Shown: positions 40,924 through 49,238 of the stretch, piece by piece
Layout of the letters: every line of letters begins with the position of its first letter
How positions within the stretch are numbered: the stretch's first letter is position 1
Virus record (IMG/VR): IMGVR_UViG_3300046170_000148
Coordinates: 62,001 to 126,000 of that record
DNA: 64,000 bases
Source of the DNA: a virus
Direction: 5' to 3' (one strand)
Program-made: the position numbers and the translations under genes
Notes under the pieces: model-generated
Seen by the model: only the letters and a program-made list of their open reading frames with translations
Database searches by the model: none
Told to the model about the DNA's origin: nothing

Positions 40924-42742
40924 TTACGCTCTAGGAGAAAAAATTTCAATCAATTCATCTTTACCCTTCACCTTGATATCACCAATCTTCTTGGTTGGCA
41001 TATCAATCTGGTCATTCGTATAAGATGATATGATAGTCTTGTAATCTATGTAGTCGCCTCGTGCGGCAGTGGCTTCTAGTCTTGCTGCAAGGTTGACCGC
41101 ATCTCCAATAACTGAGTAATCAAATCTGGATTCAGAACCCATGTTGCCAACAATACAGTCCCCAGTGTTAATTCCAGTCCCCACGTTGATAGGAGGGAGA
41201 CCAGCTTCTTCATATTTTTTTCTAAGTTCATTGGTCTTTTCCTCAATCTGAATAGCAGACTTCACTGCCATCTCTGCGTGGTTAGGGCAAGGTAACGGTG
41301 CGTTCCAGAATGCCATGATACAATCACCCATATACTTATCTATAGTGCCGCCATTGTCTTGAATGATTTTAGTCATCTGATTCAGATAATCATTGATAAG
41401 ATGCACGAGCCCTTCAGGGGTCATCGTTGTTTTTGTAGTGTTCTGATATCGGGGTGAACCCACAGATATCCATAAACAGGAATGTCATCTCTTTGCGTTC
41501 ACCACCCAACTTCATGAGACTTGGGTCTTTGGCAAGCATGTCAACCATGTCGGGTGATAGGTATGTCCCGAACTGACCCTTAATCATTTGTTTCGCCTTG
41601 AACTGCGTATAGAACTGCACAAACGAACCGTGTGCGAAGATTATAACAAATGTTATAACAGGGAAGATAGGGTCAAGGAGCATAAAGGTATTGTCGAATA
41701 TCAGTGACGCACCATTCACGAAACTTGAACTGATGATGAGGAAAACTACCCCCGAAATCACGATAGAGAGTTTAGATAACATGAATAGTATCACTATCGA
41801 TACCACTATCGTTGCGAAAAGTTCATAAAACTTAAACTCTGGCATTCGTGTGATAGTCACACCGTCAATCATCGTCTTCAACAGGTTTGCCTGAATGTCG
41901 TGGGGATACATCGCACCAACAGGAGTTGATACAACAGATGTTCCCTTGAAGGTCGCACCCAGTATCGCAATGCTTCCTGCGGGTATCTGGTCTATCTCTG
42001 TGAAGGAATATCTCTTGAACTCGTTCCAGAATGCGATACGCACATTACTATTATCGTCTGTCTGCACCACATCAAACTTCGGTATGCGAACAAATCGTAT
42101 TCCATAATCGTCTGTCTTGACTTGATAGGATACATCACCCGCAGCCACACGAAGGATATCCAATGCAAAGGCAGGATACATGCGACCCTCAAAATTCTCA
42201 ATCAAGGGGACTCTGCGTGTGATACCATCAGTGTCTTGTGTAGATGACATTGTTCCATAACCGATTGCAGCGTCCATGATTTCAGGTCGCGCAAATAACA
42301 TACCCTCAAGTTCAGGTCGGAACTCTACTGCGTCTCTTTCACCGAATGTTGCTACACCTACAGGTTTTGGTCGGGAGTCTATGTTCGTCTTATCGTTTGG
42401 TGCAATGGATACTACTGCGTTCATATCAAACAACGCATCAGCAAGTGCGTCATCACCACCGAACCTGTCTGGTTCTGACAACAAGATATTGATACCCAGT
42501 ATCGAGTTATTGAGTTTTACCAACTCATCTGCCATCGTTTCGCGGGGAATAGGATACTGACCGAACTCCTCTAGAGTCAGCTCGTCAATATCAATAAGGA
42601 CAATCTGTTCTGATTGTTTAGCGTCCTGTCCTCTTTGCATCGAGTCAAAGAAAGACAGTCTTGCACTTTCGAGTAGAAAGGGGTCAAGCAGTCTCAGGGT
42701 TACCATCAACCCCAGAGTAATAAGGACGTGCCACGTTTTCAT
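40924..42742 (-). CDS. CHASE2-domain class III adenylate/guanylate cyclase (frame interrupted once)
   Basis: Encodes 605 residues after removing one base from the GGGG run at 41417-41420. Residues 1-20 form a membrane anchor; residues about 40-310 are a periplasmic CHASE2 sensor (IVLIDIDELTLEEFGQYPIP near its start, AILGATFKGTSVVSTPVGAM near its end); two or three helices follow. The cyclase domain begins at MTFLFMDICGFTPIS, with metal-binding Asp, then DKYMGDCIMAFWNAP with the second Asp, and GINTGDCIVGNMGSESRFDY followed by SVIGDAVNLAARLE with the transition-state Asn and Arg. All catalytic residues look present, so cAMP or cGMP synthesis is expected. It is the last gene of the csgF-csgG unit. 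Confidence 0.9.
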
Positions 42743-43846
42743 TGTTTGATATTTATAGTAGAACTACCACCACCGTTTACGGTGATAGGGTCAAACTCTC
42801 GGCCTTCGGTATCGAGGTTTATTGTTGTCTCTTCGTTATTCGATACAGATATCTCTACGATGTTCTGCACATTTCGAATCAAAGTGACTTTCTCACCATC
42901 GACAATCGTGTTGATTTGTGTATCTCCGTCAAACCCTTCTAGTGTCCCTTCTACAAGCGTTTCGCCTTTGTCTTCCTTTTCTTTCAACAACTCTGCGTCT
43001 AGGTCAGAGTATGTGTCAAGTAGATTTGTCAGGAAGTCCACATCCAGATAGTCAATGTCTAGTTCTGTAAACTCCAGATAATCACGTTCTAGTTCATCAT
43101 CTTCGAGTAGTTGCTCATCGAGAAAATCGATATCAAGAGGATTGATATTCTGCCGACTATTTACTGACGTATAGAACTCTTGTTCTGTCATTCTCTCTTT
43201 AGGTGGATTGATAATCAAAATGTTATCCAGCATATCTAGAGTCAAGTCTAGAATAGCAGGATTGCTGGGAGGCATTTCACTCACAGAGGTTGTAGTGGAT
43301 TGAAACGGTTTATTCAATACCACCTCACCAGTCATAGTTGCAACAATAATTTCACCCGATGATATCCCATTCACATCGGGTAACAGCACTACAAGTGTGC
43401 GACCAAACTCGTCTACGGTCACAGTAAAGTCTGTGCCGCGAATACCGATTGAGGCAGTCGGTGTTCTCAATCTAATATTCTCTTTTTCAATCGTCCCAAG
43501 TTTGCCTGTAATGAAACGAGCAGTTCCCTGCGCGAATGTCATTGCAAGGTCAGACTTGCTTGGGTCATCATCAAACACCACATTGTCAATCACAATGCGT
43601 GTGTGTTCGGTCATGCGAAGTTTCGAATCATCGACAAACTTCACCTGCATACGCCCCTCGCCTGTGCGAAGGTCGTCTTTTGATATTATATCGAACCCTT
43701 TTTCAGGTTCGAGTTCATTGGTATCTCTTACAACTTGTCTCCAGCCGACTGCGTCGGTCAATGAGACCTACATCCTTACTGACAGCCGGTAGCGGTGCCA
43801 GAATCAGACTGAGCGATGCATAGAGTATTATCCGTGGTAGCGTCAC
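42739..43846 (-). CDS. Periplasmic FecR-domain protein (frame interrupted once)
   Basis: A GTG at 43846 gives a clear signal peptide, VTLPRIILYASLSLILAPLP followed by AVS. Removing one base from the GG at 43756-43757 links KDVGLID to DAVGWRQVVRDTNELEPEKG, giving 368 residues. GFDIISKDDLRTGEGRMQVK and FVDDSKLRMTEHTRIVID form the FecR beta-domain, and RTPTASIGIRGTDFTVTVDE its second conserved block. The C-terminal part is strongly acidic (ELERDYLEFTELDIDYLDVD) with leucine spacing. FecR domains in such gene sets are thought to bind or sense in the periplasm. ATGA overlap with the CHASE2 cyclase and 71-base overlap with the curlin-like gene tie the three together. Confidence 0.85.
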
Positions 43847-44513
43847 CTGAGCCCTCAATTTGTATGTCTAATGTATCAGACTGCAACGTTGACTCTTGTT
43901 TGATATCAATGTCCCAGTAGTTTGTTGTTCCAACGCCATCGATTGTCATAGAGTGACCATCATATCCGTCACCATCATAATCGATTGTTACATTACTTCC
44001 TAAGAAGTCAATGCTGTTTGTTGCGTTGTTGATGTCAATATCAGCAGTTACGCTGTTATAGTCACCGTCAACAATCCAGTCAACATCTGCGCCCGTGGCT
44101 TGGTCGTTATTACCAACGCTCAAGTCCAGTGTGTTATTACCACCATCCAAATCGATTACTACATTACCGCTACCAGCACCATAGGTGTCAGTTCCGTCAA
44201 TGTCGATTGTGACTGTGTTGGTGTCGCCATCGATGTCTAAATCAACATCGGTGTTGTCACCTATAATATCACCAAGAACTTTGTTGGTATCACCAACGGT
44301 ATCGATACTCAGATTGATGTTATCACCATCAACCTTCATTTTGGTTGTGTCACTAGCGTTATTACTAACTCTGTTGCCACTACCATCTTGAGTAACGTCA
44401 ATATCTGCACCAGACCCTACTTGGTCGATGTAGACCGCATTATCAGCCCATGCGAGCGATGTCCCTGCGTTTACTAGGAACAACATCACAAATATTCTTT
44501 GCAAAGTGTTCAT
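43776..44513 (-). CDS. Secreted curlin-like repeat protein, candidate curli subunit
   Basis: Encodes 245 residues. MNTLQRIFVMLFLVNAGTSL followed by AWADNA is a signal peptide with an A-x-A site. The mature chain begins YIDQVGSGADIDVTQDGSGN, matching the curlin pattern (Q-x-G-x-x-N-x-x-x-x-Q), then repeats of about 20-23 residues follow with D-G-D-x-N-x-V-x-I-D-I-D spacing. Asp, Asn, Gly, Thr and Val dominate, with almost no Lys. A Cys pair lies near the C-terminus. Location right after csgG supports export through the CsgG pore to form an amyloid-like fibre. Asp content is higher than in typical CsgA, so calcium binding is possible. Confidence 0.75.
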   Translation of the reverse strand: MNTLQRIFVMLFLVNAGTSLAWADNAVYIDQVGSGADIDVTQDGSGNRVSNNASDTTKMKVDGDNINLSIDTVGDTNKVLGDIIGDNTDVDLDIDGDTNTVTIDIDGTDTYGAGSGNVVIDLDGGNNTLDLSVGNNDQATGADVDWIVDGDYNSVTADIDINNATNSIDFLGSNVTIDYDGDGYDGHSMTIDGVGTTNYWDIDIKQESTLQSDTLDIQIEGSGDATTDNTLCIAQSDSGTATGCQ

Positions 44514-44514
44514 T

Positions 44515-45327
44515 TTACTCTCCTGTGAATGTCCAGAACTGTTTTCTGTTTCCAAGTTCTATCAGTTCTAAGACACCTGTTTCAATTGCACGTTGAGTGG
44601 CAATCGAAACGCTTTCGTTACGGGCAGTTCCAGACTCAATCTCAACGAGTCTAGTTCCCTGTTCTACATACCGAAATACATCTCCGCCAAATGCGACAGA
44701 TAGTATGGTCTTACTTGTTATGACATCAAGCAATACCTCACCAGTCGCAACACTTATCAACCTCATGTTGATTGTCACCGTGTCACGACTAAACTCTCGT
44801 GAAGAACCGATGCCAAGATATCTTGCGCCCGAGCCTCCACTTTCGGTAGAGTGGTCATATCCCACAATACCGCCTGCAATAATCATACCAGCGAATGTCA
44901 ACGCTGGTAGTTTCTTTGCGCCATCTCCGTCATAAGAACTTCGTGTCTGTCTTATGAGTTGTCTTTCTTTTGTCAACCAGTCCAATGCAGTCCTATCGAC
45001 TACCTTGAAGAACCTGCCATTAGACGCACGAGTCAAAGCACGAATCAGATATACATCTGGTGCTTGAGTGACTGCGGTGCTGAATGATGTCCCACCGCTT
45101 GCGTTCTGTCTTTTCTGCCCTGTTTGGTCGGTGAACGAATAAATCGCTACCGTTGGCTTTCTTATCGGAGGTTCAATGTTCTGTAATTGTTCTGTAAGAA
45201 GATTTGATTGAACTTTGACTGGTTCTGGTTTCGCTGGTATATCCCAACTCGTTCCACCTAGAGTGGTGCAACTAGAAACCAAAATCGCCGATAGGAATAA
45301 CAATGACAGTTTGGCTACCATCTTCAT
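44515..45327 (-). CDS. csgG: CsgG-type curli secretion lipoprotein
   Basis: Encodes 270 residues. MKMVAKLSLLFLSAILVSSC ends in a lipobox (L-V-S-S-C) for outer-membrane lipoprotein sorting. VAIYSFTDQTGQKRQNASGG then TSFSTAVTQAPDVYLIRALT, IIAGGIVGYDHSTESGGSGA, RYLGIGSSREFSRDTVTINM and SVATGEVLLDVITSKTILSV match the CsgG family in order. Known CsgG forms a nonameric outer-membrane channel that exports curli subunits. It overlaps csgF by 56 bases and precedes the curlin-like gene by one base. Confidence 0.93.
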   Translation of the reverse strand: MKMVAKLSLLFLSAILVSSCTTLGGTSWDIPAKPEPVKVQSNLLTEQLQNIEPPIRKPTVAIYSFTDQTGQKRQNASGGTSFSTAVTQAPDVYLIRALTRASNGRFFKVVDRTALDWLTKERQLIRQTRSSYDGDGAKKLPALTFAGMIIAGGIVGYDHSTESGGSGARYLGIGSSREFSRDTVTINMRLISVATGEVLLDVITSKTILSVAFGGDVFRYVEQGTRLVEIESGTARNESVSIATQRAIETGVLELIELGNRKQFWTFTGE

Positions 45328-45805
45328 CAGTTACCGTTAACTCCACTTTGTTTTCTACATCATCTTTCACATATGAGATACCCGCACCTTCAATTTCAAA
45401 TTCACCTTGATTGGTTGGGTTCTCACCGAACATCTCTTCGACGAGTTGTCTGGACAGTGTAGAGTAAATTCGACTTTCTACGTTTCGTATAAACTTAGCA
45501 AGTGTCGTATTCTTTGCGTCTCGTTCTAATTGTTTTTGTAAGTCTTCTAATTCTTGTTTTAATGCTTGTTTGCGTGATGTCTCTTGATTCTCAATCGTCA
45601 GATAGTGTGATGATTGATTGACACCATTGAATGATGGCGACTTGAAGTTGTGTTCGATTGGCGCGCCTATCGCATGACTTATAGCCAGACCCCAACAGAT
45701 ACCAACTGAAAACCACAATACTGGACTAAAGATTAACTCTGATTTAGTCTTTCCTGACTTGGCCAGCATCTCCCATGCAGTTTGTTCTCTACTCGTTCTC
45801 TTCAT
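45272..45805 (-). CDS. csgF: CsgF-like curli assembly factor
   Basis: Encodes 177 residues. A longer cytoplasmic-looking N-terminus precedes a hydrophobic segment (SPVLWFSVGICWGLAISHAI) that ends in G-A, then NFKSPSFNGVNQSSHYL, the N-x-x-F-x-x-P-S-F-N-G motif that binds CsgG in the known family. RNVESRIYSTLSRQLVEEMF and SYVKDDVENKVELTVTDEDG follow as the conserved helix and the beta-hairpin domain. CsgF caps the CsgG pore and nucleates the fibre. GAGG lies before the ATG. The position immediately upstream of csgG is as in bacterial curli operons. Confidence 0.85.
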   Translation of the reverse strand: MKRTSREQTAWEMLAKSGKTKSELIFSPVLWFSVGICWGLAISHAIGAPIEHNFKSPSFNGVNQSSHYLTIENQETSRKQALKQELEDLQKQLERDAKNTTLAKFIRNVESRIYSTLSRQLVEEMFGENPTNQGEFEIEGAGISYVKDDVENKVELTVTDEDGSQTVIVIPIGDFGF

Positions 45806-46477: not shown

Positions 46478-46936
46478 CTATTCGACTATGTGAAGTAGAA
46501 CTCTCTCCTCGTCGGTAAAGTTATACCCCGCATATAGTCTTTGAGATTGATAGGAGATACTTTCTCCAACAGCCCATTTCTTTATCTCACCGTCTTCAAA
46601 TACCATTCCTGTCTCACCATTCGGCACTATCAGAGGAATGTGATGAACAATCGAGTCCGAATAGTATTTGATATGTGTATTCGGTGGGACAAATGATTTT
46701 GGATATAGAACAATGAAATGAGCTGCTCGTATCCTATCATCTGAAATCAATTCTTGAGTTTCTGGTATTAGTTGACTGGCTTTCGAGTATCTTCCATATT
46801 TTAGAATTACTGTTCCCCAACCTTTACCAAAAGGATTCTGTTCTTTATGTGGTATTCTCCTCACATATTTCTTTACTGTTTGATAATCTCTTTCAAGAAT
46901 ATCAACATTAGATAGCAACTTTTCGACCAGACTCAT
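46478..46936 (-). CDS. Aspartyl/asparaginyl beta-hydroxylase-like protein
   Basis: Encodes 152 residues from MSLVEKLLSNVDILERD; GAAGAGAAG precedes this ATG. THIKYYSDSIVHHIPLIVPN, TGMVFEDGEIKKWAVGESIS and YNFTDEERVLLHIVE follow the Asp_Arg_Hydrox fold: an H-x(n)-H/R barrel with a late D-x-x-R-V-L-L-H strand. These are Fe(II)/2-oxoglutarate oxygenases that hydroxylate Asp/Asn or small molecules. A second member of this type is at 58.5-59.1 kb. It overlaps the TauD-like gene by 29 bases. Confidence 0.7.
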   Translation of the reverse strand: MSLVEKLLSNVDILERDYQTVKKYVRRIPHKEQNPFGKGWGTVILKYGRYSKASQLIPETQELISDDRIRAAHFIVLYPKSFVPPNTHIKYYSDSIVHHIPLIVPNGETGMVFEDGEIKKWAVGESISYQSQRLYAGYNFTDEERVLLHIVE

Positions 46937-47936
46937 ATTCTTCTCTTCGAATATTGTCAACCAACGCTAAGAATTCAGAACCATCCATCACGTTACCATC
47001 CACTGTATATTCGTCTTTGTGACCCTTGCCTGGATATAGTTTGTCCATATACGAGATATTACGCCACAACTTACGCATGTTACCATCCATTATATCAGTT
47101 GGACGAGCGTGTAGAGTGATGTTCTGTTCCATATAAACAACCTGACCATCCTTCCAATCATGGGTGTAGATATATTCAGGACGATTGATTTTCTCCCACA
47201 GATAGTCCTTGAACTTCAGACTTTCTTCTTCGGTCATACCATCAAACTTATGGAAGAGTGTGCCAGGGAAGTGAATACCCTTTACACCAGACGGTGTTGA
47301 CTGTTGTAGTTTACACATCATACCATCAACAGGAACTTGATTGTATCTAACCATCTGTTTCTGTTCGTCAATCAGATTACCTGTAAAGTTTTCTCTGTTC
47401 CAACGATATACACTCTGGAGTTCATCAACCATCGTTCTGTCTTCGTGGTTCAGTTTGTTATATGCTTCTTTGGTGCATAGGAATGCGGTCTGTGACCCTT
47501 CGGTATGTTCAACCGACACTAGACCGATGATGCGGTCTCCGTCATTGAGAGCAACTTGGTCACTATGCCAGCCCAGTATACCATTTGCAAAAACGCCCTT
47601 CGGTCTACCCTTTTTGTTTCTTTGATAGGTAACAACCGACATAGTGTTTCGATAGTCTGGTTCAATCTCTGATGAACCGTTGAGAATATTCAATCGAAGA
47701 CTATTCCAATGAATACCCTTCATTGTCCCTACGGATGTTGCAAGATGAACAATTGAGTGTGCGGGATTACCCCACTGCATCTGAACATCATATGTTCGCT
47801 TCTGGTCTAGTTTCTGGTCTACCAGAACAACAGACTCATTCGCAACAAGTCTACCCAAATCTGCGATATGTTCGTCAGAATAGATATCAAAGTCATACGC
47901 TTCTACTGCGTTATTCTTTAGAGTTCTTACTTTCAT
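46908..47936 (-). CDS. TauD-type Fe(II)/2-oxoglutarate dioxygenase
   Basis: Encodes 342 residues. GILGWHSDQVALND carries the H-x-D iron site, and QNITLHARPTDIM the distal His; an Arg follows for 2-oxoglutarate. SVGTMKGIHWNSLRLNI and QQSTPSGVKGIHFPGTLFHK are conserved in related proteins. The length suits TauD/TfdA and clavaminate-synthase-like enzymes. Substrate unknown; taurine or another small molecule, or a hydroxylation in glycan or peptide modification, are all possible. Begins the operon leading to the terminator. Confidence 0.78.
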   Translation of the reverse strand: MKVRTLKNNAVEAYDFDIYSDEHIADLGRLVANESVVLVDQKLDQKRTYDVQMQWGNPAHSIVHLATSVGTMKGIHWNSLRLNILNGSSEIEPDYRNTMSVVTYQRNKKGRPKGVFANGILGWHSDQVALNDGDRIIGLVSVEHTEGSQTAFLCTKEAYNKLNHEDRTMVDELQSVYRWNRENFTGNLIDEQKQMVRYNQVPVDGMMCKLQQSTPSGVKGIHFPGTLFHKFDGMTEEESLKFKDYLWEKINRPEYIYTHDWKDGQVVYMEQNITLHARPTDIMDGNMRKLWRNISYMDKLYPGKGHKDEYTVDGNVMDGSEFLALVDNIRREEYESGRKVAI

Positions 47937-47957: not shown

Positions 47958-48035
47958 TGGTCGGGGTTGGAAGATTCGAACTTCCGACCTCTCGCTCCCA
48001 AAGCGAGCGCACTACCAGGGCTGTGCTAAACCCCG
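47958..48035 (-). tRNA. tRNA-Pro (anticodon TGG)
   Basis: The cloverleaf reads cleanly: acceptor CGGGGTT/AACCCCG with C1-G72 as usual for bacterial tRNA-Pro, D arm GCAC...GTGC, anticodon stem CTCGC/GCGAG with loop TTTGGGA (anticodon TGG), and T arm GGAAG-TTCGAAT-CTTCC. The discriminator is A, and CCA is encoded. The first ten bases overlap the end of the upstream 64-residue gene (its TAG stop is in the acceptor/D junction). UGG can decode all Pro codons. Confidence 0.95.
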
Positions 48036-48220
48036 TCGAAATATTTCTTAATAGTTTCAATCTTCTCATCAGCGGCTGCCATTTTCTCGACTTCTTTTTC
48101 GATAGTCTCGATAATATCGATGTGTTCCCCAATACCAACAGACTGGTTTAGATATACATCAACATTTGCTTTTGCCACGGCGATATCGCCTTCAAGTTTT
48201 TTAATCAGTGCTTCTAACAT
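48026..48220 (-). CDS. Small coiled-coil protein
   Basis: Encodes 64 residues, helical and charged: MLEALIKKLEGDIAVAKANV and IETIEKEVEKMAAADEKIET. AGGAG lies seven bases before the ATG. The stop codon lies within the first bases of tRNA-Pro, so processing of the tRNA would cut the end of the message. The family is unknown; a phage-wide small helical protein of this sort is often near the tRNA genes. Confidence 0.65.
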   Translation of the reverse strand: MLEALIKKLEGDIAVAKANVDVYLNQSVGIGEHIDIIETIEKEVEKMAAADEKIETIKKYFDGV

Positions 48221-48239
48221 TTCATACTCCTAATAATTA

Positions 48240-48585
48240 GTGGGGACTTCTGTTGCTAGGCGTCCCCTGACCCCGAAAACTATGCGGCTAGCGCATAATC
48301 CTCATGTGCGTAATTATCGTTTGCACTTACGAGTTTGTTGCGCTCTTGCGGATGGGATTGCCCGTCCGTCTCACAGGTGGCTTCCGCACCTATTCTCCAC
48401 ATTCCTAATCAATACCTGTCGAACCTGTTTCGCCCCCGAAACTTTAGTGTGAGGGGTTTCTGCTCCTCTGCTACAACCCCTCACGGAACTCACAGATTGG
48501 GCCTCTCCTTGAGAGAGATTGGTGGAGGCGGTGGGTATCGCACCCACGTCCAGTATACCTTTTGGTTTGCTTCAACGAATACCCT
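48240..48585 (-). ncRNA. ssrA: Permuted (two-piece) tmRNA
   Basis: The acceptor piece comes first on the coding strand: GGAC, T arm GTGGG-TGCGATA-CCCAC, then CGCCTCC and an encoded ACCA ending at 48520. An intervening segment (48438-48519) with a ten-pair hairpin (GTGAGGGGTT/AACCCCTCAC) follows. The coding piece starts at 48437 with GGGGGCG, which pairs with CGCCTCC to form the seven-pair acceptor stem, then AAACAGGTTCGACAGG, the diagnostic D-loop-like segment. The tag frame (48324-48280) encodes ANDNYAHEDYALAA and stop. A GGGGAC/GTCCCC hairpin (48242-48267) closes the piece. Order and tag match alphaproteobacterial tmRNA. The T loop has G in place of the invariant U55. The 5' limit of the acceptor piece is approximate. 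Confidence 0.93.
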
Positions 48586-48593
48586 TATTTATA
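48586..48593 (-). promoter_or_regulatory. T4-type late promoter TATAAATA at the tmRNA
   Basis: TATAAATAAGGG overlaps the stop codon of the upstream gene and lies directly before the acceptor piece of the tmRNA, so a start at about 48580 would produce its precursor. This predicts late transcription of the tmRNA, the coiled-coil gene and tRNA-Pro. Confidence 0.65.
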
Positions 48594-48789
48594 CTCCAAG
48601 AATATTTCCTGCTTTTCCAATATCAAGAGTGCCACCATTCCGCATGTGTTCCTCTACTTGTTCAAAGTAGAATGCAGCGTCTTCGTGACCATACTCCTGA
48701 AGAACGTCCTTACACGCCTTGAAGAATAACATTGTCTTCATCAGATTACCGTCACCCATAGGTTTAGATTTTTTGCCAGACCGTTGCAT
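48589..48789 (-). CDS. Small conserved helical protein
   Basis: Encodes 66 residues: MQRSGKKSKPMGDGNLMKTM then LFFKACKDVLQEYGHEDAAF and FEQVEEHMRNGG. No family assigned. The ATG shares a base with the upstream stop (TAATG), and the stop overlaps the tmRNA promoter. It belongs to the two-gene early unit started near 49.2 kb. Confidence 0.6.
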   Translation of the reverse strand: MQRSGKKSKPMGDGNLMKTMLFFKACKDVLQEYGHEDAAFYFEQVEEHMRNGGTLDIGKAGNILGV

Positions 48790-49209: not shown

Positions 49210-49238
49210 ACTATAACACAAGAAAACTAAGATGTCAA
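49210..49238 (-). promoter_or_regulatory. Sigma70-like early promoter (TTGACA-17-TATAGT) with long leader
   Basis: TTGACA, 17 bases, TATAGT. The upstream gene's TGA stop lies inside the -35 box. The leader to the next ATG at 49076 is about 125 bases, longer than after any other early promoter here. It holds ATGATG with a 15-codon frame, of doubtful significance, and an inverted repeat. Confidence 0.82.

Follow-up and report, generated by a model that had tools for sequence, protein, structure and literature searches.

A permuted two-piece tmRNA gene behind a putative late promoter in a T4-like phage genome

The locus and its phage

The window analyzed here is a 64,000-nucleotide stretch comprising bases 62001–126000 of a 144,192-bp virus record. 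The genome is apparently circular and complete, since the major capsid gene spans both ends of the record. Two Rfam covariance models and ARAGORN agree on a complete permuted tmRNA gene, as an earlier note on this DNA had claimed without stating the strand; the whole gene lies on the minus strand at 48581–48239. RF04321 (tmRNA_permuted) matches 48581–48280 (−) at 105.3 bits against a cut-off of 47, and RF01849 (alpha_tmRNA) matches 48630–48239 (−) at 101.5 bits against a cut-off of 50. The covariance-model check proposed in that note therefore came out above both curated cut-offs, at about twice the respective values, and the RF01849 match upholds the assignment to the alphaproteobacterial two-piece type. 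ARAGORN called a permuted tmRNA with the tag ANDNYAHEDYALAA*. The locus contains the following features:

49210–49238 (−): sigma70-like promoter match TTGACA-17-TATAGT, 11/12, two ORFs upstream of the tmRNA (consensus match only)
48586–48593 (−): TATAAATA, T4-type late promoter box (exact motif match), overlapping the TAA stop of ORF 48589–48789
48520–48581 (−): tmRNA acceptor piece, the tRNA-like 3' half with encoded CCA (covariance models)
48438–48519 (−): spacer of 82 nt, predicted to be removed in maturation, with two predicted hairpins inside
48239–48437 (−): tmRNA coding piece (covariance models)
48280–48324 (−): tag reading frame ANDNYAHEDYALAA with stop TAG (ARAGORN)
48274–48304 (−): predicted tag-end hairpin, kept in relatives with synonymous codon changes
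48242–48267 (−): 3'-terminal hairpin of the coding piece (GGGGAC...GTCCCC)
48026–48220 (−): small ORF (phrog_1811, unknown function), just 3' of the tmRNA
47961–48035 (−): tRNA-Pro(TGG), downstream of the tmRNA in the same direction (ARAGORN and Rfam)

The acceptor half with its CCA precedes the coding half, and the seven-pair acceptor stem described from the letters alone does form between them, including the G3-U70 pair, an AlaRS identity element. The tag frame, likewise read correctly as ending in a stop (ANDNYAHEDYALAA*, 48324–48280 (−)), carries a resume codon and a C-terminal degradation signal.

Searches with the proteins of Melnitz, a Methylophilales phage (MZ577097), showed that most T4-like core genes have homologues in the record, as does a CsgF-CsgG-curlin-FecR-cyclase cluster, with identities of 57–71% for capsid, 52% for portal, 46% for terminase, 58% for gp41 and 41% for CsgG. 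ThyX, CsgG and CsgF were also matched by Pfam in the record. We provisionally assign the phage to the Melnitz-like, or pelagimyophage, group from these shared genes: a T4-like core together with CsgF, CsgG, curlin-repeat, FecR and cyclase genes. The record also encodes gp55 (a phrog_234 match), gp33 (a phrog_254 match) and gp45, which with the core homologues bears out the description of the phage as T4-like. The absence of smpB noted for the window holds over the entire 144-kb record, and no SmpB was found in 36 other records examined; host SmpB would therefore be needed.

The curli-type genes form a row at 41414–45805 (−) that encodes CsgF, CsgG, curlin-repeat-like, FecR-like and cyclase-like proteins, as in Melnitz and HTVC008M. 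Its curlin-like ORF (43776–44555) resembles Melnitz gene 101 and has no match in Pfam or PHROGs. Just downstream of the tRNA-Pro lies an oxygenase-type gene pair at 46478–47936 (−), of the TauD family (46908–47936) and the aspartyl/asparaginyl hydroxylase family (46478–46960). When the whole region was used in a distant DNA search of phage records, the matches listed covered only the tRNA-Pro and a neighbouring ORF.

The novelty implied for a phage two-piece tmRNA was not sustained, the class having been published in 2022. That report (PMC9004378) describes a two-piece ssrA in Melnitz; it counts 17 contigs with permuted tmRNA among 47 related ones, and 53 tmRNAs of the two-piece kind in phage genomes, of which 50 come from marine or aquatic samples. 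The tmRNA in the window is one more case of this class, known earlier in related marine phages. Melnitz resembles our phage in its T4-like relationship, permuted alpha-type tmRNA, ThyX and CsgF-CsgG genes, lack of SmpB, and a TATAAATA before the acceptor piece. It differs in its tag, ANDNYVPVDYALAA, in its TATAAATA, which a TTGACA −35 box overlaps and which was described only as an early promoter, and in a glutamine riboswitch reported there (PMC9004378), for which neither the window nor the remaining record gave a match above cut-off.

A late promoter motif in front of viral tmRNA genes

The late site that had been placed directly before the tmRNA is there: the T4-type box TATAAATA at 48593–48586 lies 4 nt 5' of the model acceptor start, and no −35 box can be recognised before it at a suitable spacing. 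In a T4-type late promoter the box sits roughly one helical turn ahead of the start, and a −35 element is absent (PMC2988020). The phage sequence has the exact box, no −35 element, and genes for gp55, gp33 and gp45; the start site is predicted. In the window TATAAATA occurs nine times, always on the minus strand, whereas 2.3 copies are expected by chance and shuffles never reached nine. The full record holds 18 copies on the main coding strand and four on the other, each of the latter 6–96 nt before a same-strand ORF. In Melnitz, copies of the motif stand before virion genes, among them those for sheath, core and capsid. Because of this strand distribution before ORFs and the placement at Melnitz virion genes, TATAAATA is very probably the late promoter of this phage group.

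Viral permuted tmRNAs were gathered with a pattern for the coding piece, which yielded at least 111 unique upstream regions. Among the matches listed, TATAAATA is present in 73 of these 111, nearly always 73–82 nt before the CCA end. Clustering at 85% identity gave at least 73 clusters; a single representative of each was typed with simple patterns. Among the matches listed, 45 of 73 clusters contain the exact motif and 28 lack it; in 43 it falls within a 10-nt zone, where the null gives 0.32 clusters on average and 3 at most. The 45 motif-bearing clusters among these matches divide into 30 in which TATAAATA overlaps with a sigma70 −35 box, three with a separate sigma70 promoter, and 12 that are late-only, the window belonging to the last type.

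TATAAATA stood before none of 115 alphaproteobacterial ssrA genes retrieved with the same search pattern. It was also missing from the zone of 24 further bacterial ssrA genes (small genomes, mostly AT-rich), and no copy lay within 40 nt upstream of any of 61 phage tRNAs. The permuted tmRNA genes of six named non-T4-like phages, roseophages and others (DSS3P8, RcXuper, EliS-L02, Cp1R7A-A1, CcrBL9 and RcRudolph), are complete by ARAGORN and encode other tags; none has the motif in front. We rejected three further accounts of the motif on these counts: a trait shared by every RNA gene that these phages carry (0/61 tRNAs), inheritance from AT-rich bacterial ssrA (0/24), and an effect of base composition (a null mean of 0.32 against 43 clusters, and 0/24 in the AT-rich bacterial controls). 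Of ten long viral records that have both a tmRNA and gp55, the exact motif is present in eight and a close variant of it in the other two. The association with gp55 is not perfect: L061, a 183-kb viral record, has TATAAATA before its permuted tmRNA and no gp55 match. Its late sigma factor is perhaps divergent.

A functional tmRNA could instead act mainly early, transcribed from a host sigma70 promoter or by read-through and serving host-protein tagging or amino acid recycling, with TATAAATA being just a sigma70 −10 box. This has been proposed for Melnitz, whose ssrA is placed behind an early promoter, with early action argued (PMC9004378); that study sought late promoters with TATAAAT, and its accessible text does not report an early/late overlap at ssrA. 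A −35 box at the right spacing in 30 of 73 viral clusters among the matches listed agrees with such a reading, as does the sigma70-like match upstream in the window (49210–49238). However, the window and 11 other clusters among these matches have the motif without a −35 box. Where a TTGAC box is present, the −10 octamer among the matches listed is TATAAATA 25 times and never begins with TATAAT, the sigma70 consensus; a few contigs have a separate TATAAT followed by TATAAATA, and in Melnitz the motif marks virion genes. We therefore regard a mainly early role as unlikely. Our search of the literature, which took in few subscription journals and preprints, returned no report of a late promoter before a phage ssrA, an arrangement that may thus be new.

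Conservation and lineage

The 14-residue tag peptide is identical in the window and in three viral contigs from IMG/VR (L007, L052 and L089), and only synonymous third positions and the stop, TAG for TAA, differ. All three share TATAAATA without a −35 box and have very similar mature parts; their spacers are 12–30 nt long as opposed to 82 nt in the window, and in L089 the motif lies further upstream. Centroid structures predict the tag-end hairpin in both codon versions, with one pair switched from C-G to G-C through changes in two codons. In 115 viral sequences among the matches listed, G3-U70 never varies, the two sides of the acceptor stem can pair, and covariation is seen at T-stem positions 1–2 (C-G, G-C, U-A, A-U); positions fixed by the search pattern are no independent evidence in this comparison, and U70 was left free by the pattern. 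With the same tag encoded by synonymous codons and its hairpin kept, the tmRNA looks to be under selection, and this is what a tmRNA in use should look like. Its RF01849 score, far under the 277–302 bits of bacterial ssrA, counts against our preferred explanation.

Two other kinds of tag were seen among viral permuted tmRNAs. Five contigs (L004, L032, L033, L055 and L081) have very short tags (ANYNNFALAA, ANFNEYALAA, ANNNNFALAA) and no TATAAATA, and three of the five form a separate, well-supported tree branch. In L105 and L121 the predicted tag, ANDNALSNVTFVDFSAPVTAVNEDFALAA, is unusually long.

It is highly improbable that the RNA is a tmRNA-like competitor for SmpB or AlaRS, hindering host trans-translation rather than rescuing ribosomes. 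The phage lacks smpB, and the tag-less tmRNA of phage DS6A inhibits the endogenous tmRNA in E. coli (PMC11915505), but a competitor would need none of the tag frame, stop and LAA end that are conserved here under synonymous change. It is equally improbable that the gene is a mere passenger, either copied from a host ssrA or left over from an integration site: temperate phages do integrate at ssrA (PMC9004378, PMC12656738), but the selection pattern of this complete gene, with tag and structure conserved, largely refutes such an origin. A lineage separate from bacterial ssrA and a phage-type promoter at a fixed position also count against it.

Alphaproteobacterial ssrA (RF01849) resembles the phage gene in permuted order, the G3-U70 acceptor stem, the resume-codon region and the 3' hairpin of the coding piece. 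In contrast, a 5' leader hairpin separates its promoter from its acceptor, and TATAAATA is missing there. None of 385 alphaproteobacterial genomes held a close relative of the window tmRNA, only short conserved patches being matched. In a tree built on only 124 columns, with weak inner forks, bacterial ssrA forms one supported branch (100/98) holding 59 of 60 sequences, with the viral sequences outside. The permuted ssrA of Methylobacterium sp. BTF04 (L201; 39-nt spacer) sits among the viral sequences and is possibly a prophage copy. Because of the tree separation and the lack of a close relative in the 385 genomes, the evidence argues for long residence of the tmRNA in phages. The suggestion that the gene hints at the donor or host group did not survive these two results, nor the account of Melnitz, which has an alpha-type tmRNA and yet a gammaproteobacterial host (PMC9004378); donor and host are not nameable from the gene. 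The split between phage and bacterial ssrA is a warning against inferring hosts, or recent host switches, from such genes.

Predicted expression and use

The best reading of these sequences is a working phage tmRNA with predicted expression at least late in infection. We consider it probable that the phage maintains a functional, host-SmpB-dependent two-piece tmRNA, expressed late from TATAAATA and aiding late ribosome recycling. RNA polymerase directed by gp55, gp33 and gp45 would start downstream of the box at 48593–48586, so that the 5' end of the primary transcript would fall at, or a few bases from, the acceptor 5' end. Host RNA-processing enzymes would cut out the spacer, leaving two mature pieces held together by acceptor stem pairing. 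Once charged by host AlaRS, the tmRNA would be delivered by host SmpB to ribosomes stalled on broken mRNA, where ANDNYAHEDYALAA would be added to the stalled products, its LAA end marking them for ClpXP-type proteases. The likely benefit would be that ribosomes stay available for the heavy synthesis late in infection, at a time when mRNAs are being cleaved.

The genes upstream of the tmRNA run in the same direction, which together with the sigma70-like match at 49210–49238 counts against a purely late reading; early read-through from that match is possible. The data agree with each of the roles proposed earlier, whether ribosome rescue, tagging of proteins for ClpXP or a preference for phage messages, and late timing would favour ribosome recycling. 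A start right behind the late promoter suggests that the tmRNA in the window, and in most relatives, is used late, while virus particles are made.

More broadly, we lean towards the view that T4-like phages with a permuted tmRNA have placed the gene under a late promoter of the gp55 type, in many cases fused with a sigma70 promoter to give one early-plus-late element, at a spacing that would let the promoter set the acceptor 5' end and make the bacterial 5' leader hairpin dispensable. If true, the tmRNA would be a late phage function and not solely a tool of early takeover, as published. Going by the promoter pattern, phage tmRNA is predicted to be made either late or both early and late, where an early role had been expected; this would favour ribosome recycling in virion production over an early attack on host proteins.
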